In this document: positions 2,465 to 18,763 of the stretch, piece by piece | Numbering within the stretch: position 1 is the first letter of the stretch | Layout of the letters: each line of letters starts with the position of its first letter | DNA from: a virus | IMG/VR virus record: IMGVR_UViG_3300036846_000048 | Span: 1 to 20,176 of that record | Strand: one strand, 5' to 3' | Length of the DNA stretch: 20,176 nt | Program-made: the position numbers and the translations under genes | Notes under the pieces: generated by a model | Seen by the model: only the letters and a program-made list of their open reading frames with translations | Databases searched by the model: none | Told to the model about the DNA's origin: nothing

Positions 2465-4051
2465 ATGCCGATCTCATTTGCTGCAATCCCTCAAAACATC
2501 AAGGTGCCTTTGTACTGGGTTGAGGTCGATCCGTCGAAGGCCGGTCTGCCGTCGATCAATCTGCGGGCGCTGCTGGTCGGCGTCATGACCAGCGACGGCA
2601 ATGCTACACCCGACACGGCGATCCCGATCGGTACGCAGGCGCAGGCTGATGAAGCCTTTGGCGCGGGCTCTGAGCTCAGCCGAATGGTGCAAGCCTACTA
2701 CTCGAATAATTTTGCAAATGAGCTCTGGTGCTTGCCGGTGGCTGAGCCGACCGGCGGCAGTGCTGCAACCGGATCGGTCGTTATCGCTACGCCACCGACG
2801 GCGGCGGGAACGATCCATCTCTACGTCGCGGGCACGCATGTGCCGGTCAACATCATGACCACGGACACCGTTGACGACATCGGCTCAGCGATCGCCGATG
2901 CGATCAACAGCTACTATCTCGACACCGCCGTGGCATTGCCGGTCACTGCGGTCAACACCGCTGGCACGGTGGCGCTGACGGCGCTGTTCACCGGCGTCAA
3001 CGGCAACGAGATCACCGTCACGATGAACTATTACGGTTCGGTCGGCGGCGAATTCACACCGACAGGGCTGGGGATAACGCTGCCGAGCGGCGGCATGCTC
3101 GCGGGCGGCGTCGGCACGCCGATGTTCGACACCGCGATCGCCAACATCAACAAAGAAGCATTCGAATATGTCGCCATGCCCTACACCGACAGCAATTCGC
3201 TGTTTGCGTGGGATCAGGAATTTGGCTTCACCGATCAGGGCCGCTGGGGCTGGATGCGCGAGCAGTTCGGGCACGTCTTTTCGGCGAAGCGCGGCAGCTA
3301 CGCGAGTTTCTTGACGTTCGGCGAGACGCTCAATTCCGGCGTCGAGTCGATCTTGGCATTCGAGCTGACCTGTCCGTCGCCGATGTTCGAAGTCGCTGCC
3401 GCCTATGCGGCGAAAGCACAGCGCGCCCTGATCAACGATCCGGCCAGGCCGCTGCAGACGCTTGCCCTGAACAACATCAAGGCGGCGCCGCTGAAAGATC
3501 GGTGGGATTTTCAGGAGCTCAATTCGCTGGCCTCGACTGGCTTTGCCATTCAGGAAGTCGGCAGCGATCAGCAGCCGATGATCCTGCGCGAGCAGACGAC
3601 CTACCAACTTAACCTCTATGGCCAAAGCGATGACGCCTATGAATTGGTGACCACGCTGGCCACGCTGGCCAAGGTGCTGCGCAATCAAAAGCAGGCGATC
3701 ACCAGCAAATATCCGCGCAGCAAGCTTGCTGATGACGGCACGCGGTTCGGACCGGGCCAGGCGATCGTTACGCCCGGCATCATCAAGGCCGAGCTCGTCA
3801 ACGAGTATCAGCTCGATATGTGGAACGGCCTGGTCGAGAATCTGAGAGAGTTCAAGGCTAACCTCATAGTCGAACGTGACAGCTCAAACCCCAACCGCCT
3901 GAACGTGCTCTATCCTCCGGATCTCATCAACCAGCTGCGGATCTTCGCGGTGCTGGCGCAATTCCGCTTGCAGTATGACCGCGGCATCGACCTGCAGATC
4001 ATCGGCCAGGCACCGCCGCCGTTCCAGGCTTCCGGCGGCACGCCGCAGTAA
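2465..4051 (+). CDS. Tail sheath protein (Mu gpL-like)
   Basis: This 528-residue protein is of normal length for a myovirus sheath (about 500 residues). The N-terminus matches the family layout: 'I-P-Q-N-I-K-V-P-L-Y ... K-A-G ... LRALLVGVM', then 'AQADEAFGAGSELSRMVQAYY', the usual A..fG.GS.l..M helix. The middle is a beta-rich insertion domain. The conserved C-terminal part includes RPLQTLALNNI, LKDRWDF, a helix-strand section ending in TTYQLNLYG, and final strands before the helical end. Sheath subunits polymerise around the tube and contract to drive it through the cell envelope. The gene follows DUF2635 and precedes the tube, as in Mu. The C-terminal proline-rich tail (QAPPPFQASGGTPQ) looks flexible. 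Confidence is high. Confidence 0.93.
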   Translation: MPISFAAIPQNIKVPLYWVEVDPSKAGLPSINLRALLVGVMTSDGNATPDTAIPIGTQAQADEAFGAGSELSRMVQAYYSNNFANELWCLPVAEPTGGSAATGSVVIATPPTAAGTIHLYVAGTHVPVNIMTTDTVDDIGSAIADAINSYYLDTAVALPVTAVNTAGTVALTALFTGVNGNEITVTMNYYGSVGGEFTPTGLGITLPSGGMLAGGVGTPMFDTAIANINKEAFEYVAMPYTDSNSLFAWDQEFGFTDQGRWGWMREQFGHVFSAKRGSYASFLTFGETLNSGVESILAFELTCPSPMFEVAAAYAAKAQRALINDPARPLQTLALNNIKAAPLKDRWDFQELNSLASTGFAIQEVGSDQQPMILREQTTYQLNLYGQSDDAYELVTTLATLAKVLRNQKQAITSKYPRSKLADDGTRFGPGQAIVTPGIIKAELVNEYQLDMWNGLVENLREFKANLIVERDSSNPNRLNVLYPPDLINQLRIFAVLAQFRLQYDRGIDLQIIGQAPPPFQASGGTPQ

Positions 4052-4134: not shown

Positions 4135-4500
4135 ATGGCTCAGAGATTTGCCGGAATTGCCTACCTGAAAGTCGACGGTGTGCAGCTCGCACTCCGCGGC
4201 AACTTGAACGTCTCACCGAGCTCGGTCGAAAGAACGATGCTCGCTGGCCAAGATGGCGTGCACGGCTATCAGGAACTGCCGCGCGTGCCGTATATCGAGG
4301 GCGACATGTCGGCCGTGCCTGGCTTGCTGCTCGAGGATCTCGAGGCGCAGACCGACGTCACTGTCGTCGCCGTGCTCGCCAACGGCATGCAATACAGCCT
4401 GACCGGCGGCACCTGCAAAGCAGGCTTCGAAGAAAACGCCCGCGATGGTCAATTCCGCGTTCGCTGGGAAGGCCTCGCCTGCCAGGAAATCACGCTCTAA
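4135..4500 (+). CDS. Tail tube protein (Mu gpM-like)
   Basis: This 121-residue protein has the pattern of the Mu gpM / phage tail tube family: an N-terminal strand 'AYLKVDGVQLALRGNLNVSPSSVERTM', a central GVHGYQELPRVPYIEGDM, the helix LLEDLEAQ, and closing strands 'NGMQYSLTGGTCKAGFEENARDGQFRVRWEG'. The 'G-Y-x-E-x-P-x-x-P-x-I-E-G' phrase and the final 'EGQ..vrFeG' style strand are typical. Tube subunits stack as hexamers inside the sheath and form the DNA conduit. The position immediately after the sheath and before the chaperone is the standard order. Confidence 0.9.
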   Translation: MAQRFAGIAYLKVDGVQLALRGNLNVSPSSVERTMLAGQDGVHGYQELPRVPYIEGDMSAVPGLLLEDLEAQTDVTVVAVLANGMQYSLTGGTCKAGFEENARDGQFRVRWEGLACQEITL

Positions 4501-4509
4501 GAGGCGCTA

Positions 4510-5007
4510 ATGTCAGAAACAGTCAGACCATTGCGTGAGGGCTTTGTGCGGCCAGTCGAGGACGTGGTCGAGCACATGGAGCCGCTCGAGACCCCAAGCG
4601 GCGCGCCGCCGCGTGATCCGCTGCCACCGGAAATGAAGCTGACCGAGCATCCGCCCGAGCCGCCGATCGATCCTTATGAGGAAGTGCGCAGGGACATTGC
4701 CGACAGAGCGGAAAAATGGCCGATCACCGTGCAATTGCTTTATCGGCCGATCCGCGATGTCGATGGCAAGGAGCTCACAGCCTTGACGTTCCGCGAGCCA
4801 CGCGCCGCCGAGATCAATCGCATCGGCAACCCGACGCGCGTGCTGTGGGACAGCGAGATCGTCGTCGAGGAACGCAAAATGACGTTCATCATGGCGTCGC
4901 TGTCCGGCATCCTGCCGCCGATCCTCGAGCAGATGGATCCGCGCGACTGGAATTCTTGCGCACTTCGCCTGCGCAAGTTTTTTATAGCCGATCTGCGGGC
5001 GTGGTGA
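4510..5007 (+). CDS. Tail assembly chaperone, zero-frame product (Mu gp41 / P2 gpE-like)
   Basis: The ATG at 4510 follows GAGG (4501-4504) and yields 165 residues. The first 65 residues are acidic, proline-rich and probably disordered. The conserved domain begins near residue 75: ITVQLLYRPIRDVDGKELTALTFREPRAAEI, ending with MTFIMASLSGILPPILEQMDPRDW and a short helix. This is the 'E/41/14' chaperone family: a beta hairpin carrying 'l.y.p...dG.e...l.lR.P...dl', then a helix containing 'la.l.gl....i..ld..D'. Such proteins coat the tape measure during tube assembly. Near the end of the gene lies a run of six T (4978-4983), after which a -1 shift enters a further open frame. Confidence 0.85.
   Translation: MSETVRPLREGFVRPVEDVVEHMEPLETPSGAPPRDPLPPEMKLTEHPPEPPIDPYEEVRRDIADRAEKWPITVQLLYRPIRDVDGKELTALTFREPRAAEINRIGNPTRVLWDSEIVVEERKMTFIMASLSGILPPILEQMDPRDWNSCALRLRKFFIADLRAW
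4977..4983 (+). promoter_or_regulatory. Probable -1 ribosomal frameshift site
   Basis: The zero-frame codons AAG TTT TTT ATA contain the in-phase heptamer G-TTT-TTT. A P-site Phe tRNA on the second TTT can slip back one base and still pair with TTT. The -1 frame then continues from TAT at 4983 to TGA at 5169-5171, while the zero frame stops at 5005-5007. P2 uses a T-run slippery site at the equivalent place between E and E', and frameshifting here is conserved across tailed phages. The downstream stimulatory structure was not assessed. Confidence 0.7.
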
Positions 5008-5171
5008 TCACGCAGGTCGACGACTCCCTGGTGTTGGATTGCTACCGCCTCGCCAGCTATTACAAGCTTGATCCCCGCATTTTTCTCGACATGCCGATCA
5101 GCGAGGTGCGCTTGCACGCGCAGCGCACCATCGAGCTCGAGATGAGCAAACGCCCGCCGCCTGGTGATTGA
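4983..5171 (+). CDS. Chaperone -1 frame extension (Mu gp42-type / P2 E'-like part)
   Basis: This 62-codon segment in the -1 frame fills the space between the zero-frame chaperone stop and the tape measure start. It encodes a helical segment VDDSLVLDCYRLASYYKLD followed by a short helix 'ISEVRLHAQRTIELEMSKR'. The pattern 'll....ryy..dp..fl.mpl.e...h...t..l' is what second-part tail chaperones look like. If produced by frameshifting, the fusion would be about 220 residues (158 from the first frame plus 62). The alternative is independent initiation at GTG 5001 or 5004, giving about 55-56 residues with the upstream TGA overlapping. No Shine-Dalgarno supports that, so I favour frameshifting. Its stop overlaps the tape measure ATG by one base (TGATG). 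Confidence 0.65.
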   Translation, partial: YSRSAGVVITQVDDSLVLDCYRLASYYKLDPRIFLDMPISEVRLHAQRTIELEMSKRPPPGD

Positions 5172-7972
5172 TGGCTGAAACCGAAGAACTGAGAATTGGC
5201 GTTAGCCTGGTCGACAACGCTTCGGCGCCGCTCGCGCAGCTGTCGAAGAATTTTCAAAACGTGTTTGGCAACCAAGCCAGGCAGCAAGTCGATCTATGGC
5301 GGCGATCGCAATCAGACGCTACCAAAAACATCAAGGAGATGACCGAGGCCATACTCGGCGGCGAGCGGGCGATGCTTGGCATGATCGGCAAGTGGGGCCT
5401 GCTCGGCTTTGCCGTCGGCAAGGCTGGCGAAATGCTGGTGCAATTTGCTGGGCGCCTGCAGAGCACCGCGCGACTCGCAGAAGATCTCGGCCGCTCCTTC
5501 GGCAGCGTCCATGACGCCATTCGGCAGTTTCAATCGGTTGGCGTGCCGCTCGATCGCGCCAAGCAGGCGATCGCCAGCCTCAATGACGCCGTCGTCGAGC
5601 TCGGCCGTCAGGGCTCGCAATCACGCAATCGATTGCTCGATGCTTTCGGCCCGCAAAATCAGCAGCAGGTGCTGAGATACATCGACGCGATCAGCAACGC
5701 CAAAGACGAAACTGAAAGACTGCAGCGCACCTATGAACTGCTGCATGCAGGCGAACAGGCGCGCTATGACTTTTTGCGGCGGCAGCACGTCGACGAAGCC
5801 AAAGCCCGCGCCGACGCCGCCAAATTCTATCGCGACCAGGCCGCGGCAATGGGCATCGACCCGTCTGATCTGCGCCGCGCTGCTACGCATGCGCGAGTGC
5901 GGCCATCGACGCCGGAAGAAATCACTTCCGCTAAAGAAATCGCCGAGTCGAGCAAGGAAGCGCAGCGCGCATTCAACACCGGCATGCAACAGGCGGGCGA
6001 CGCCGCCGAGCGCTTTGCCGGATCGCTGAATAAGGCGCTCGACGAGGTCGCCGACTACATCGACAAGCAGCTCGGCCGCAACAAATACGCACCAGGCAGC
6101 ACAGTAGCCGTACCCGGGCATCAACACGGCGGCATTGTCACCAGGCCGCATCTGGCGATGGTCGGCGAGGCCGGTCCCGAGGCGATCATTCCGCTGAATG
6201 CGGCTGGCGGCATGCTCGGCAACGGCATGAGCCAGGAGGAGCGCGACAAGGCGCTGAAAGAGAACACTGAGCAGCTCGCAGCGCTGAATGACAAATTTGA
6301 CTTGCTGATCGGCAGCGACGGTGGCGGCGGCGGCCTCGGCGGCCTTCATGGCGGCGGCCGCGGCGGCCGCGGGCTCGGCGGCGGCGGCGGCGGCGGTCCT
6401 GGCGGCGGCGGTCCTGGCGGCGGCGGCGGCGGAGGAGGAGGGGGCGGCGGTGGTGGCGGCGGCGGCGGCGGCGGGACGGACGCCAGCGGCACCGATCACA
6501 GCAATCCGACCACGCACACCAAGCGGCAGCTCGGCGGCTTTCAGGCCACCGGCGGCGGCGCACCAGGCGGCGGCACGTTCCCGAAGATCGCTGGCGGTGG
6601 CGCAGCTGGCGCGGCCGAGCATGAAGCGCTGGCCGGTCACCGGCGCCTCGGCGGCGGCGGCGGCGGCGGACAGACATTGTCGGGCAGCGCCTTCCTGCAG
6701 GAACAGCGAAGAAGCCGCTTTGAGGAACTCGAAAAGGATCCGGAGACCAAAAAGCTATTCGGGCAAATGCTCGCGACGGAAGCACTCGCAGGCAATCAGG
6801 CCTCGCACACCGCAACAGCAGAGGCGCTGGTCAATCGGTCGGTGATGGTCGGCAACACGCTCAAGCAAGAATTGAACAGCGGTTTCTATGGGCCGATCAA
6901 ACATGGCATCGCGCAGCAGCGTGCGCCGAGCCCGTTGACCGACAGCACCATCGCCGCGGTCAGGGGCGGCAGCAATCTTATTCAAAGCCGCACTGATCAG
7001 GGCTCGGGCAACGATCCAAATGTCGGCGGGCCCGGCCGCGTGCGTTATCCCGGCCAGAAGGGCGGCGAGGTTTTCAACTTCTGGAAAGGCCGACGCATGG
7101 GCCGAGATTGGAGTCATGCGGACACTCAACGATTTGCCGAAGAAAACGAGCGCAAGATCCGCGAAGGCGGCACCGTCAGCAGCGAAGGCGATGCCAAGCA
7201 CCATCCGCGTCGCCTGGCCGATCTGCACGGCGGCGCTGCTGGCGTCGCTGGCGATGTTGGCGTCACCAGTCTCGGCCCGAGCTATAAGTCTGGCAATCTG
7301 TCCGTCGCTGGTTCCGATCAACCGTTTCATTGGGGCAGCGGCAGCGGGAGAGCTCAAGGCATTCCTTTCGGCACTTATAACGTCGATTTTGGCGGCGTCG
7401 GCCCGCAGGGACGCAGCGGATGGGGCGGCAAGCTGCCGCCTGCGCTCGCAGGCGTGACCACCGACGCCAGCGGCAACGTCGTTCGCGGCGGCGGCTATAC
7501 GGGACAAGGCATCGAGATCCATGCCAATTCAGCCAACGATCTCGATCATCTTTACACGCTGGGCTGCTTTAGTGTTCCCGCCAACGAATGGCCCGCAGCA
7601 AAACAAGCGATCCTCAATGCGGCCAAAAACGCGCCTGGCGGCAAACTGCGATTGAACGTGCGGCCGGGAGCAAAACCAGGCGATCCGATGCGAGCATCTA
7701 TCGGACCGCCGAGCGCTCAAGCTACCGGGAAGGGCGACGCGCCGTATGAGCCGCATGCCTTGCGCTCGTCGCTCGATCGCGCCGCAGAGATGACGCACAG
7801 AGTCAAAGGCGACGCCAACGTCAACGTCAAAGTCACGGCACCGCACGGCACTGAGACGACGGCGGACTCGAGCGGCATATTCCGTCGCGCCCGGATTCAT
7901 CGCCAGCATCCGATGGCACCGGCGGCGCCTGGCGCTGGCACGGCAGCGCCTAATCAGCAGCCATTCGCATGA
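5171..7972 (+). CDS. Tail tape measure protein with glycine linker and two cell-wall domains
   Basis: I start at ATG 5171 (TGATG overlap); TTG 5168 is an alternative adding one residue. The product is 933 residues. Residues 1-345 are helical tape-measure sequence ending in the hallmark GGIV..P.LAMVGEAGPEAIIPLN (320-343), common in phage tape measures. Residues 384-435 are almost pure glycine, including 20 Gly in a row, and a second Gly-rich stretch follows to about 500. Residues 511-660 resemble a SleB-like or muramidase-type hydrolase: LFGQMLATEALAGN with Glu537, then TATAEALVNRS and a G-F-Y-G-P-I-K segment. Residues 731-815 have YkuD-type L,D-transpeptidase marks: IPFGTY, IEIH (His784) and LGCFSVP (Cys799). 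Tape measures set tail length and often carry wall-degrading domains released on injection; two different ones is unusual. Tape measure call is firm, both enzyme calls tentative. Confidence 0.85.
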   Translation: MAETEELRIGVSLVDNASAPLAQLSKNFQNVFGNQARQQVDLWRRSQSDATKNIKEMTEAILGGERAMLGMIGKWGLLGFAVGKAGEMLVQFAGRLQSTARLAEDLGRSFGSVHDAIRQFQSVGVPLDRAKQAIASLNDAVVELGRQGSQSRNRLLDAFGPQNQQQVLRYIDAISNAKDETERLQRTYELLHAGEQARYDFLRRQHVDEAKARADAAKFYRDQAAAMGIDPSDLRRAATHARVRPSTPEEITSAKEIAESSKEAQRAFNTGMQQAGDAAERFAGSLNKALDEVADYIDKQLGRNKYAPGSTVAVPGHQHGGIVTRPHLAMVGEAGPEAIIPLNAAGGMLGNGMSQEERDKALKENTEQLAALNDKFDLLIGSDGGGGGLGGLHGGGRGGRGLGGGGGGGPGGGGPGGGGGGGGGGGGGGGGGGGGTDASGTDHSNPTTHTKRQLGGFQATGGGAPGGGTFPKIAGGGAAGAAEHEALAGHRRLGGGGGGGQTLSGSAFLQEQRRSRFEELEKDPETKKLFGQMLATEALAGNQASHTATAEALVNRSVMVGNTLKQELNSGFYGPIKHGIAQQRAPSPLTDSTIAAVRGGSNLIQSRTDQGSGNDPNVGGPGRVRYPGQKGGEVFNFWKGRRMGRDWSHADTQRFAEENERKIREGGTVSSEGDAKHHPRRLADLHGGAAGVAGDVGVTSLGPSYKSGNLSVAGSDQPFHWGSGSGRAQGIPFGTYNVDFGGVGPQGRSGWGGKLPPALAGVTTDASGNVVRGGGYTGQGIEIHANSANDLDHLYTLGCFSVPANEWPAAKQAILNAAKNAPGGKLRLNVRPGAKPGDPMRASIGPPSAQATGKGDAPYEPHALRSSLDRAAEMTHRVKGDANVNVKVTAPHGTETTADSSGIFRRARIHRQHPMAPAAPGAGTAAPNQQPFA
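6321..6475 (+). repeat. GGC-type trinucleotide tract encoding poly-glycine
   Basis: Nearly every codon in this stretch is GGN, mainly GGC, interrupted by a few Leu, Arg, His and Pro codons. The last 60 nt (6416-6475) encode 20 consecutive glycines. It lies in frame within the tape measure gene, between the tape region and the enzymatic domains. Replication slippage here would change linker length by whole codons without breaking the frame. Confidence 0.9.
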
Positions 7973-9255
7973 GCGACACCTCGGTCACGCTGCCGGAAAT
8001 CGTCGTTACGCCGGACACGCCGACGGACGCAAAGCCGCAGATCAAGCGCGGCGAGTGGACGCCGACGCCTGGCGTGACGCAGCAGAACGACGGCGGCGCT
8101 ACCGGCAGCGAGACCACGGTCAGGCCAGTGGTTCCGTCCTTGAGCATGAACAAGCCCGAGGATGTCGCCACGCTGGTGGTCAACGGCATGGAGTTCGACG
8201 ATTGGGAAACCGTTTCCATTCACGCCACGCACGTCGAGCAGGCGTCTACGTTTCGGTTCACCGCCGCCGAGCGCGATTTCCCCGCGGGCGCGCTGCGCCA
8301 ATTCGGTCCCGGTGATCGCTGCCAGATCTGGCTCGGCAATTCTTTGGTGATCGATGGCTTTATCGAGCACCGTCAGATCAGCTATGACGCGCAAAATCAC
8401 GGCGTCGAGCTGCAAGGCGTGAATTTCGCTTCGCCGGTGTTGCGCTCCAGCGTCGACACCACGACCGGCAATTTCGACAACATGAATGTTCAGCAGGTTG
8501 CTGAAAAAGTCTTGTCGGCCTATGCGGGACTGGTCGGCGTCAGAGTGATTGGCGCGCTCAATCTGCTGCCGTTCGTCAAGCTACAAAACCAACCTGGCGA
8601 ACAGATCTACGATTTCATTGAGCGCATCGCGCGGCCGCGCGGAATCATCGTCGGCAATGATAGTTTCGGCAATATGCTGTTGATCGGGCCGAACGCGGCG
8701 AAAATCGATCTGCAACTGATCGAAGGTCAGAACATCAAAAAATGCCAGGCGATTTTTCACAAGTCGCATTCCTATACGGAGATCGACACCATCGGCCAGA
8801 CCGCGGCCGACGATTCGCAGTCGGGGACTGCAGCCTCGGAGCAACAAGGCCAAGCACCAGGCCCGGGCTATTTTCCAAGCAAGCTGATCGTGCAGTCGGA
8901 ACAGCCGGTTTGGGGCAAGCCCGAGCTCGTTGATCGCGCCAAGTGGGAAGCGCTGTGGCAGGCATCAGATCAGTTTCAGGTCTTTTGCACGGTGCCTTAT
9001 TGGTATTTCGCGCCAGGTCAATTGTGGTGGCCGCTCGATAACGTCTATGTCTTTTCGCCGATGGTGCCGGTCGACACCAACATGGCGATCCAATCGGTGA
9101 CGTTCTCACAAGACGACCGCGGCGGCACGCAGACCGAGATCGAGCTGCGCATGCCGTGGGGGCTCAACAGCAACGTGCCGATCGGCAAGATCGGCCCGGC
9201 GGCGCCCGCCGTGACTATTCCGCCAGGCCAGGCGCTGCCGCCGACGCCGCTCTAG
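7969..9255 (+). CDS. Baseplate hub protein (Mu gp44/gpP-like)
   Basis: The ATG overlaps the tape measure stop (ATGA) and gives 428 residues. Residues 65-300 match the Mu gp44 / T4 gp27-type hub: VATLVVNGMEFDDWETVSI, then strands with FRFTAAERDF, PGDRCQIWLGNSLVIDGFIE, the strand HGVELQGVNFASPVLRSS, and a helix 'NVQQVAEKVLSAY'. These form the trimer that links the tube to the spike. The first 60 residues (MSDTSVTLPEIVVTPDTPTD..., rich in Pro, Thr and Gly) are a low-complexity extension not needed for the fold. Met60 is an alternative start without a better ribosome binding site. The C-terminal part (to VPIGKIGPAAPAV) is beta-rich and ends in a proline-rich tail. Order differs from Mu, where the N gene precedes this one. 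Confidence 0.82.
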   Translation: MSDTSVTLPEIVVTPDTPTDAKPQIKRGEWTPTPGVTQQNDGGATGSETTVRPVVPSLSMNKPEDVATLVVNGMEFDDWETVSIHATHVEQASTFRFTAAERDFPAGALRQFGPGDRCQIWLGNSLVIDGFIEHRQISYDAQNHGVELQGVNFASPVLRSSVDTTTGNFDNMNVQQVAEKVLSAYAGLVGVRVIGALNLLPFVKLQNQPGEQIYDFIERIARPRGIIVGNDSFGNMLLIGPNAAKIDLQLIEGQNIKKCQAIFHKSHSYTEIDTIGQTAADDSQSGTAASEQQGQAPGPGYFPSKLIVQSEQPVWGKPELVDRAKWEALWQASDQFQVFCTVPYWYFAPGQLWWPLDNVYVFSPMVPVDTNMAIQSVTFSQDDRGGTQTEIELRMPWGLNSNVPIGKIGPAAPAVTIPPGQALPPTPL

Positions 9256-9265
9256 GAAAAACCAG

Positions 9266-10033
9266 ATGGCATTCGTCGACAATCCGCGCGCGCCAGCGCC
9301 GCCTGGCACCGGGCTCGTGCCGGTGCCTGCGACATTCCCGGCTGGCCTCGAGGGGACGCGCGCGCAACCGGCGCCCTGGCGCGCGGCGCTATTGCCCGCA
9401 GCGTTTCGCAATGCGCACTTTCACTGCGAGACCGGCAGCCGCCGCAATGGCCGCCGCATCGTCACCCACGAATTTCCGAAGAAGGAATTGCCCTGGTCGG
9501 AGGACATGGGGCGGCGCGCTAAAGAGTTTACGGTTCGCGCCTATTGCATCACCTACCCGACTGACCTGGGCGCTGGCGCTTTCGTCATGGGCACCGGCGG
9601 CGACGGCCTCGAGCTCTACAAGCGCGACTATCGCATCGCCCGCGATTTGCTGCTGTCGGCGCTCGAGCAGATAGGACCGGGGACGTTGCAGCTGCCGCTG
9701 CTGCCCGCCGAGAATGTCGTGGTCACGCAATATCAGCTGACCGAGGAGGAGCGGCTTGGTGGCTACTGCGTTTTCGACATTCAATTCTCTGAGTATGGCC
9801 AGGATCCAAGGATCACGGTCGCCAACGGCGCTGCGATCCTCGCCGCTGCAGCTCAGCAGGTTCAGCAGACTGCAGTGACAACGACCGACACCGTCGACGG
9901 CACCGAAAACCCGTCAGGCCCGAATGATCCCGGCAACACGTTCAGCCAGCGCTTTGGCAGTTGGTCATCGCAAGCGCAGCCCGGGGCTGGTACTGGTGGC
10001 ACCGGCGCATTCGGCGAAAGCAATCCGTTCTGA
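9266..10033 (+). CDS. DNA circularisation protein N-terminal half (Mu gpN-like)
   Basis: AGGA at 9254-9257 precedes the ATG by 8 nt, and the product has 255 residues. Residues 38-93 are the conserved N-terminal domain of the Mu gpN family: W-R-x-x-L-L-P-A-A-F-R, F-H-C-E, GRRIVTHEFPKKELPWSEDMGRRA and a F-T-V-R-A-Y strand. The family pattern is W...L..asFrg..F.v......gGRR...HE.P.rd.p..EDlGr. Homologues act in tail and baseplate assembly, and Mu gpN has also been linked to circularising infecting DNA. In Mu it is one protein of about 490 residues. Here the frame stops after a Gly/Pro/Ser-rich tail (AQPGAGTGGTGAFGESNPF), and the rest of the family's domain is in the next gene. Confidence 0.78.
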   Translation: MAFVDNPRAPAPPGTGLVPVPATFPAGLEGTRAQPAPWRAALLPAAFRNAHFHCETGSRRNGRRIVTHEFPKKELPWSEDMGRRAKEFTVRAYCITYPTDLGAGAFVMGTGGDGLELYKRDYRIARDLLLSALEQIGPGTLQLPLLPAENVVVTQYQLTEEERLGGYCVFDIQFSEYGQDPRITVANGAAILAAAAQQVQQTAVTTTDTVDGTENPSGPNDPGNTFSQRFGSWSSQAQPGAGTGGTGAFGESNPF

Positions 10034-17078: not shown

Positions 17079-17465
17079 ATGGCCGGGCCTGCTTATTACG
17101 ACGCAGTCGTCAACATCGCGCTCAACGAGGATTGGATCGTGCCGTTCGTCTACGGCACCTATGACGTCGACGGCGTCACCGTCATTCCATTTGATCTGAC
17201 CGGCTCGGTGTTCAAGCTGGAAATCCGCCAGATCGAAGAAGATCAGGAGGCGATCGTCGATGTGTTTTCGCCGAATGATGGGATCGCATTTTTCAACAAC
17301 GATCCAAAGAATGGCGGTGGCTTTAGTATCCAAATCACTCGCGCCAAGCTGCAGCGTCTATTCCCTGGCGACTTCACCATCGATCTGGTGCGGCTGATGC
17401 CGAGCGGCTGGCAGGAACGAATTTTTGAGGGCGTGGCCAAGGTGGTAACGGGGACGACGCGATGA
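17079..17465 (+). CDS. Beta-sandwich tail accessory protein, unknown role
   Basis: The 128-residue product consists mainly of strands: WIVPFVYGTYDVDG, PFDLTGSVFKLEIRQIE, FSIQITRAKLQRLFPGDFTIDLVRL and the C-terminal ERIFEGVAKVVTGTTR. The pattern 'D...pf.y......p.DLTG..f..qiR ... g.y..Dl......g....i..G...v..g.T' is common in phage genes preceding fibres, with an Ig- or BppU-N-like beta fold. It probably docks a fibre on the baseplate or on another fibre. The last 4 nt overlap the start of the collagen fibre gene (ATGA), supporting joint production. No enzyme motif is visible. Confidence 0.65.
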   Translation: MAGPAYYDAVVNIALNEDWIVPFVYGTYDVDGVTVIPFDLTGSVFKLEIRQIEEDQEAIVDVFSPNDGIAFFNNDPKNGGGFSIQITRAKLQRLFPGDFTIDLVRLMPSGWQERIFEGVAKVVTGTTR

Positions 17466-18763
17466 CTCAGCGATTCACCCTCGAGGGCGGCACGCCACGC
17501 ATCACACTGGCGCCGAACGTCGCGCCTGGGCCTGGCGTGATCGCGCTGGTGACGACCCCGATGGGCCCGCCTGGCCCGCCTGGCCCGCCTGGTCCGGTCG
17601 GCCCGCAAGGCTTGCCGGGAGCTCAAGGGCCGATCGGCCCACAGGGCGCGCCGGGAGGTCAGGGCTCGGCGGGGCCGGTTGGTCCGGCTGGGCCTGGCGG
17701 CGCGCAGGGCTATGGCGGCAGCTCGACGACCTCGATCTTTATGGCGACCGGCGCGCAGACGCTGACCACGCAAACCAACCTCGCCTATAAGGTCGGCGCG
17801 CGCATCCGCGTCGTCTCTAACGGCACGCCGTCGAATTGGATGGAAGGCCAGGTCACCGCCTACGATCCGGCGGGCACGGCGCTCTCGTTCAACTGCGATA
17901 CCGTCAACGGCGGCGGCACTGCGTCCGATTGGAATATCAGCATCACCGGACAGATCGGCACGCAGGGCGCGCCTGGCCCGCAGGGACCGGCTGGCAACTC
18001 TGGCGATGCCAGCTCGCCGCTCGGCGGCCGCTTGTCGTTCGTCAACACCACGACGTTGCAGTTCAAGCCGTATCGCGGCGATCGCATCAAGATCGCGGGC
18101 ACGATCTGGCCGATTCCGGCAGCGGGAATCGTCGGCCTCACCAAAACCAACGCCTTTATCGATGGCGTTGCCGGGCAGACCCTGGTCAACGGACGGCTTT
18201 ATTTTGTCTACTGCTTTGTCAACACCGGCGGCGTTCTAACGGCGGACTTTTCGACGACCGGGCACACCACGTCGGTCGCCACCGGCAACGTCGGCATCGA
18301 AATCAAACAGGGCGATGAAACGCGCAGCTTGATCGGTCTGATCTACGTCGCCAGTGACGGCACCTTTCATGACGACACAACTTTTCGTTATGTGCGCAGC
18401 TGGTTCAATCGGCCGCGAGCGGTGCTCAGGACGACGGCCAACGCCAGCGGCGCCAACAACATGCAAACCTGTTTCGTTTATTTTGTCGCCTGGAATGACG
18501 AGATTTTTGATTACAGCGCTAACGGCCCTGTGCAGAACAATCAGGCGGGCAATAATCTTTCTGTGGGAATCTACATCGACAACACGCTGGTTAGTTCAAA
18601 CACGGTCACCGCGCGCAACGCCAGCACCTATTACTCAATCAGCGCGCGCGGCATCGCTCAACTGACCAACGACGCAGCATTGCATTCTGCTTACGTTTAT
18701 TTGAGCTGGGATGTGAACGGCACGATGACCGGCAACATGTACGCGCAGGGCGTGCTTGGCTGA
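17462..18763 (+). CDS. Collagen-like tail fibre, first copy
   Basis: This 433-residue protein starts in an ATGA overlap. Residues 1-34 are a short anchor. Residues 35-85 form 17 Gly-X-Y triplets (GPPGPPGPPGPV...), and a second set of about seven triplets lies at 163-183, separated by a beta domain (VGARIRVVSNGTPSNWMEGQV). Collagen-like triplets make stiff trimeric stalks in phage fibres. The C-terminal 250 residues are a predicted beta-rich head: RIKIAGTIWPIPAAGI, DGVAGQTLVNG, T-G-N-V-G-I-E-I, RSLIGLIYV, SWFN. A homologous head is in the next gene. The likely role is receptor binding at the distal tip. Function is inferred from architecture; the receptor is unknown. Confidence 0.8.
   Translation: MTQRFTLEGGTPRITLAPNVAPGPGVIALVTTPMGPPGPPGPPGPVGPQGLPGAQGPIGPQGAPGGQGSAGPVGPAGPGGAQGYGGSSTTSIFMATGAQTLTTQTNLAYKVGARIRVVSNGTPSNWMEGQVTAYDPAGTALSFNCDTVNGGGTASDWNISITGQIGTQGAPGPQGPAGNSGDASSPLGGRLSFVNTTTLQFKPYRGDRIKIAGTIWPIPAAGIVGLTKTNAFIDGVAGQTLVNGRLYFVYCFVNTGGVLTADFSTTGHTTSVATGNVGIEIKQGDETRSLIGLIYVASDGTFHDDTTFRYVRSWFNRPRAVLRTTANASGANNMQTCFVYFVAWNDEIFDYSANGPVQNNQAGNNLSVGIYIDNTLVSSNTVTARNASTYYSISARGIAQLTNDAALHSAYVYLSWDVNGTMTGNMYAQGVLG
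17566..17592 (+). repeat. Three exact 9-bp repeats in the first collagen stalk
   Basis: CCCGCCTGG occurs three times head to tail (17566-17574, 17575-17583, 17584-17592) and encodes the Gly-Pro-Pro triplets at the start of the collagen segment. Exact repetition makes copy-number change by slippage possible, always in frame. Confidence 0.85.

Follow-up and report, generated by a model that had tools for sequence, protein, structure and literature searches.

Tape measure proteins with two enzymes are already known, and the closest described case is CwlP (YomI) of the SP-beta prophage, a very large tail protein with a muramidase and a D,D-endopeptidase domain (PMC5380687, PMC3314691). The tape measure protein of mycobacteriophage TM4 is reported to carry a peptidoglycan hydrolase motif that aids infection (PMC1796659). 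SleB requires its catalytic Glu to act as a lytic transglycosylase (PMC12331253). Tlde1a combines carboxypeptidase activity with D-amino-acid exchange and forms small amounts of 3-3 cross-links, and its H129A variant, in which the motif His is substituted with Ala, kept the exchange activity, lost most of the cross-linking and showed partly reduced carboxypeptidase activity (PMC9638812). In the literature searched, with most subscription journals outside its coverage, no tape measure protein was described as having a domain of the L,D-transpeptidase fold (including YkuD), and no report of D-amino-acid exchange or L,D-cleavage as the chemistry of a phage tail was found.

The window, that is, the whole stretch of 20,176 nucleotides analyzed here (virus record IMGVR_UViG_3300036846_000048), encodes a tape measure candidate in which an earlier note had seen two wall-active domains. 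Both domains are real in that their motifs are conserved and both segments fold in structure prediction, as the check proposed at the time, domain-wise modeling, returned one hydrolase-like and one L,D-transpeptidase-like fold. The two segments are referred to as domain A and domain B.

A tape measure candidate in a Mu-like tail module

A Mu-like contractile tail module was identified in the window by PHROG matches (Table 1). The order of genes, sheath, tube, chaperone-like protein, the 934-aa ORF and hub, places the ORF at the tape measure position. Tape measure PHROG matches were restricted to the GEAGPE segment, and were weak, at best E 1.2e-6 for an unnamed family and 2.2e-4 for a named tape measure family. 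Gene order and these weak matches together suggest that the ORF encodes the tape measure protein of a Mu-like tail, the profile assignment itself being weak.

The ORF starts at TTG 5168 or at ATG 5171, the latter being the start used in the earlier note, and stops at 7970-7972. Residue numbers given here follow the TTG start; subtraction of 1 gives the numbering from ATG 5171, in which Glu538 is Glu537. There is no frame break between domains A and B. A frameshift hidden in the linker and fusing two genes was considered and rejected, because the frame is open throughout and the same layout is repeated in relatives.

The hub gene lies upstream of the GpU-like gene in the window (7969-10033), whereas the GpU-like gene comes first in three related loci (L002, L007 and L011). 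Elsewhere in the window, a tail-fibre-like ORF at 17462-18763 contains a collagen-like Gly-X-Y stretch (GPPGPPGPPGPVGPQGLPG...).

Table 1. Features of the tail module and of the tape measure-like protein, with positions in the window and residues in TTG numbering.
Feature	Position	Strand	Residues	Basis
Sheath	2465-4051			PHROG, E 9e-152
Tail tube	4135-4500			PHROG
Chaperone-like protein	4510-5007			PHROG
Tape measure-like protein, 934 aa, with both enzyme domains	5168..7972	+		Open frame; gene position; residues 314-348 weakly matched by TMP PHROGs
GGIV..GEAGPEAIIPL motif	6128..6196	+	321-343	Typical of tape measure proteins
Glycine-rich linker	6320..6475	+	385-436	Similar linkers in relatives
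Second short Gly run	6647-6685			Follows the glycine-rich linker
Domain A, predicted SleB-like lytic transglycosylase fold	6698..7156	+	511-663	AF2 model; SleB match; hhalign
Predicted catalytic Glu538	6779..6781	+	538	16/16 invariant; aligns with the first Glu of the SleB profile, itself conserved
Domain B, predicted L,D-transpeptidase fold, nearest Tlde1a/DUF5675	7268..7708	+	701-847	AF2 model; structure matches; hhalign
Predicted catalytic His785 (His784 from the ATG)	7520..7522	+	785	14/14 invariant
Predicted nucleophile Cys800 (Cys799 from the ATG)	7565..7567	+	800	14/14 invariant; His-Cys distance 15
C-terminal tail, common to relatives whichever enzymes precede	7820..7924	+	885-919	C-termini of 12 relatives side by side
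Baseplate hub (Mu gpP-like)	7969..9255	+		phrog_177, E 1.3e-51; start overlaps the TMP stop codon
Hub/GpU-like protein	9266..10033	+		phrog_184, E 1.1e-31; query for relatives
Baseplate wedge proteins	up to 14022			PHROG

Relatives found through neighboring tail genes

When the two segments were searched directly against Pfam, PHROGs, NCBIfam, PDB sequences and the phage and plasmid collections, nothing significant was returned, with the exception of one 70% relative of domain B in a 4-kb contig (L002). Phages searched with other A and B members as queries gave no relatives either, and neither domain is covered by a named family of Pfam, PHROG or NCBIfam. Relatives were therefore sought in viral contigs by means of the neighboring genes. 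The hub led to 11 loci, including L008, where a 51% relative of domain A is encoded, and the GpU-like protein led to 80 loci. All open frames of these loci were scanned with A and B profiles, and the resulting 16 A and 14 B sequences were aligned. Identity to the window is 26-50% for A members and 35-67% for B members.

Two scans of genome contigs yielded no relative, so that no cellular genome or host is linked to the module, and a sheath search in plasmids indicated no host.

Domain A resembles SleB in predicted fold and catalytic residues

The AlphaFold model of domain A (pLDDT 90.8, pTM 0.85) matched SleB (4fet_A) with Z 11.5 and rmsd 2.5 over 114 of 122 residues at 10% identity, and SleB was its only credible structural match. 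The segment around the Glu, previously called hydrolase-like, is thus SleB-like by structure prediction. Foldseek gave the comparison with SleB a probability of 0.99 but a weak E of 0.21. The hhalign comparison of A with a profile of seven phage SleB-type proteins reached E 7.3e-4, with Glu aligned on Glu and Asn-Arg on Asn-Arg; Glu538, Glu552 and Asn556 are invariant in the A alignment (n = 16). Pfam Hydrolase_2 (PF07486) gave no match above cut-off in the window, in the L017 record or in the 16 A members, indicating that domain A belongs to a distant, unnamed branch rather than to PF07486.

Domain B is predicted to share the L,D-transpeptidase fold but departs from the canonical motif

For the AlphaFold model of domain B (pLDDT 85.6), all 50 matches listed are L,D-transpeptidase-fold PDB entries, in agreement with the YkuD-like reading of this segment in the earlier note. 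The best match listed is Tlde1a (7uo8; Z 7.7, rmsd 3.4, 116 residues aligned, 16-18% identity), followed by Pgp2, mycobacterial Ldts, Csd6 and YkuD. Since a Z of 7.7 is within reach of chance arrangements, the case is carried by the uniform one-family list and the conserved motif; the Foldseek E of 0.079 is also weak.

No match of the window's domain B above cut-off was obtained with PF03734, PF10908 or PF18925, and Tlde1_dom (PF10908) was touched weakly by three of the 14 B members (best E 0.042). The only phage-collection matches of B, at a non-significant E of 4, came from crAss-like phages; these proteins carry the annotation L,D-carboxypeptidase/transpeptidase and belong to DUF5675. A BFVD fold search with B gave nothing significant, a DUF5675 protein ranking second at E 1.1, and the hhalign comparison of B with DUF5675 reached E 1.2e-4 with P.GTY, IH and T.GC aligned. 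The profile search suggested in the earlier note gave nothing significant against the databases and gave matches in the two profile-to-profile comparisons. In column-shuffle controls (100 each), 99 shuffles scored at most 16.2 for A (real score 29.0) and at most 19.7 for B (real score 32.8); the remaining shuffle of each set scored 132.7 (over 7 columns) and 136.9 (over 26), respectively, which is implausible and was taken as a program artefact.

Within the HXX(14-17)-(S/T)HGC motif, the first His and the Cys are invariant in the 14 B members and the Ser/Thr and Gly are kept too. The motif search found a His-to-Cys distance of 15 in 13 members, and in the last one, L076, the distance comes to 15 as well if it is counted from the second His, the aligned one. 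Leu-Asp before Leu-Tyr and Trp-Pro after the Cys are likewise invariant (14/14). The His of (S/T)HGC, in turn, is missing from every member and replaced by A, E, Q, L or K, and for this reason domain B was kept apart from the canonical YkuD and Tlde1 members.

The motifs quoted in the earlier note were all located, namely ATEALAGN (536-543), EALVNR (552-557), PFGTY (733-737), IEIH (782-785) and LGCF (798-801), and the invariance of the three residues it had singled out (its Glu537, 16/16; its His784 and Cys799, 14/14) takes them beyond chance. The interval proposed there, 6701-7690, covers both domains well but stops short of the end of B at about 7708.

Loss of catalysis is common within hydrolase folds, and one or both domains might accordingly lack activity and instead bind the wall or play a structural part, a reading to which the departure of B from the canonical motif would lend itself. 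It is nevertheless very improbable, as the Glu of A and the His and Cys of B remain invariant at the low identities seen among the members.

The fold of B and the few 3-3 cross-links made by Tlde1a are in line with a further claim of the earlier note, that the injected tip re-cross-links the wall; on this reading B would seal the entry hole opened by A and spare the host. The absence of the HGC His from all 14 members, together with the strongly reduced cross-linking of Tlde1a H129A (PMC9638812), argues against this by analogy and leaves carboxypeptidase, endopeptidase or exchange activity. In relatives, moreover, peptidases or amidases hold the place of B, and a one-shot injected protein would provide few copies for repair. 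Re-cross-linking is thus highly unlikely, and that part of the claim is not supported. The alternative named beside it, that the tip modifies peptidoglycan, is possible for B by analogy with Tlde1a, in the form of carboxypeptidase activity or D-amino-acid exchange.

Enzyme modules are exchanged between the linker and the common C-terminal tail

The segment between the glycine linker and the common C-terminal tail is an exchange slot in which the enzyme pairs vary among relatives. Domain B is combined with Phage_lysozyme2 in L053 (E 6e-9) and L077 (E 2e-16) and with a SleB-like domain in L076, and precedes an A-like domain in L058, where the order is reversed. Domain A is combined with CHAP in L052 and L056, with a CHAP-like domain (phrog_1259) in the prophage L017 and with M15_4 in L051. 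Pairs containing neither A nor B are CHAP with Glucosaminidase (L067), SLT_3 with M15_4 (L013, both weak) and an Amidase_2-like domain with an SLT-like segment (L005). Domain A stands alone in L008, B occurs twice in L078, and B is found with no identified partner in L042 ORF1, L077 ORF1 and L084. The partners in L057 and L087, the SLT part of L005 and the lysozyme-like part of L011 were called by eye from motifs, without a scored search, and a PHROG search with the unnamed partner domains gained little. The pairing of two wall-active domains, regarded as unusual in the earlier note, is hence less so than stated, given CwlP (PMC5380687) and the many relatives with pairs.

Where both parts can be named, a glycan cutter is predicted beside a peptide or amide cutter by domain family. 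Domain A has the same kinds of partner as glucosaminidase and SLT domains, and B the same kind as M15 and amidase domains; Amidase_2, M15 and CHAP gave no match in any of the B-bearing ORFs scanned. These partnerships suggest that A acts as the glycan cutter and B as the peptide-acting enzyme. As the relatives swap enzyme pairs at one spot, the tail has the look of a rod that delivers interchangeable tools for opening the wall.

Domain B might instead be an L,D-carboxypeptidase or D-amino-acid exchanger that alters stem peptides so that the wall is weakened or later phages are affected, with no part in cutting the hole. Tlde1a, the closest solved match listed, performs these reactions, and its exchange activity survives loss of the same motif His. 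The pairing of B with a glycan cutter and its location in a tail protein point to entry, however, and each infection brings in only a few copies of the tape measure, which makes a role apart from the hole unlikely.

Many relatives appear to have a tandem pair of long tape-measure-like ORFs before the hub or GpU gene, in contrast to one in the window (L007 2080-6515, L011 2155-6632, L045, L061, L068, L077, L078, L084 and L088), each ORF often with its own enzyme cassette. In L078 (3468-4451) and L080, two tandem B copies lie in one ORF, and SLT-like and amidase-like segments were recognized by eye in the next. The first tape-measure-like ORF of L045 (2374-5637) ends, by eye, with a peptidase-like and a small alpha/beta-hydrolase-like segment (LFLHGM...GFSAGG). 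Near-identical linker peptides (YGSDVGPGSGAG; GTSGGAGATG) lie before or between the modules of otherwise different proteins in L042, L052, L056, L057, L061, L072, L077, L084 and L088 and are absent from the window; they may be joints for module exchange.

Discussion

One open frame, two predicted folds, conserved catalytic residues, a position in the tail operon and module exchange were seen here. A two-enzyme cassette on a Mu-like tape measure, acting on glycan and stem peptides and built from exchangeable modules, would account for them, and we consider this account as a whole to be probable. Ejection, refolding, the activities and the bonds attacked are its inferred parts. When the sheath contracts, the cassette behind the glycine linker would be ejected together with the tape measure and then refold in the periplasm. 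Domain A, with its SleB-type active site, would cut glycan strands as a lytic transglycosylase, and B, as a Cys/His enzyme, would act on stem peptides. The likeliest activities of B are those of an L,D-carboxypeptidase, an L,D-endopeptidase or a D-amino-acid exchanger, by which it would open or edit the mesh instead of cross-linking it anew. Between them, A and B would clear the wall locally so that the tube and the DNA can pass. Related phages swap each half for other enzymes, keeping a predicted glycan cutter next to an enzyme that would cut peptides or amides. Glycan cutting with stem-peptide cleavage or exchange on entry is therefore favored over re-cross-linking.

More tentatively, injected B may edit stem peptides at the entry site, by D-amino-acid exchange or L,D-cleavage, and the C-terminus of the tape measure may be a standardized socket in which one glycan-cutting and one peptide-acting module are swapped to fit the host wall; both together are conceivable, if somewhat doubtful. 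If B acts specifically on L,D bonds, hosts whose walls contain many 3-3 cross-links would be a good fit for it.

The locus brings two unnamed families of predicted enzymes into phage entry and reveals one slot on the tail ruler where related phages swap wall enzymes in pairs. The pairing of a glycan cutter with a peptide cutter is a testable rule and a source of new wall-active enzymes.

Comparison with known systems

In phage Mu, the tape measure gp42 precedes the DNA circularisation protein and the hub, the order with which the position of the 934-aa ORF was compared. Domain A shares the fold and the E...NR core motif with the SleB catalytic domain (Hydrolase_2, PF07486) and differs in its own GGSNxI..T.QG segment, its fusion to a tape measure, an identity of 10% and a similarity below Pfam detection. 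Domain B shares the IPxGTY...IH...T.GC signature with DUF5675 (PF18925), for example the crAss001 'L,D-carboxypeptidase/transpeptidase', yet DUF5675 proteins are separate, small and adjoin lysis genes in crAss-like phages, whereas B is a tail-protein domain, and the His-Cys distance is 15 in B and 11 in DUF5675. The T6SS L,D-transpeptidase effector Tlde1 (PF10908) resembles B in fold, in the His...GC motif and in delivery by a contractile machine; B differs in the replaced HGC His, in an identity of 16-18% and in belonging to a tail protein. TM4 is a siphophage whose tape measure is reported to have one motif, compared with two predicted enzymes in tandem in the window. CwlP carries two wall-hydrolase domains of different kinds, one acting on glycan and the other on peptides, as predicted for the tape measure described here, but it belongs to a Gram-positive (Bacillus) host, whereas the window combines predicted SleB-like and L,D-transpeptidase-fold domains with a Mu-like contractile tail module.
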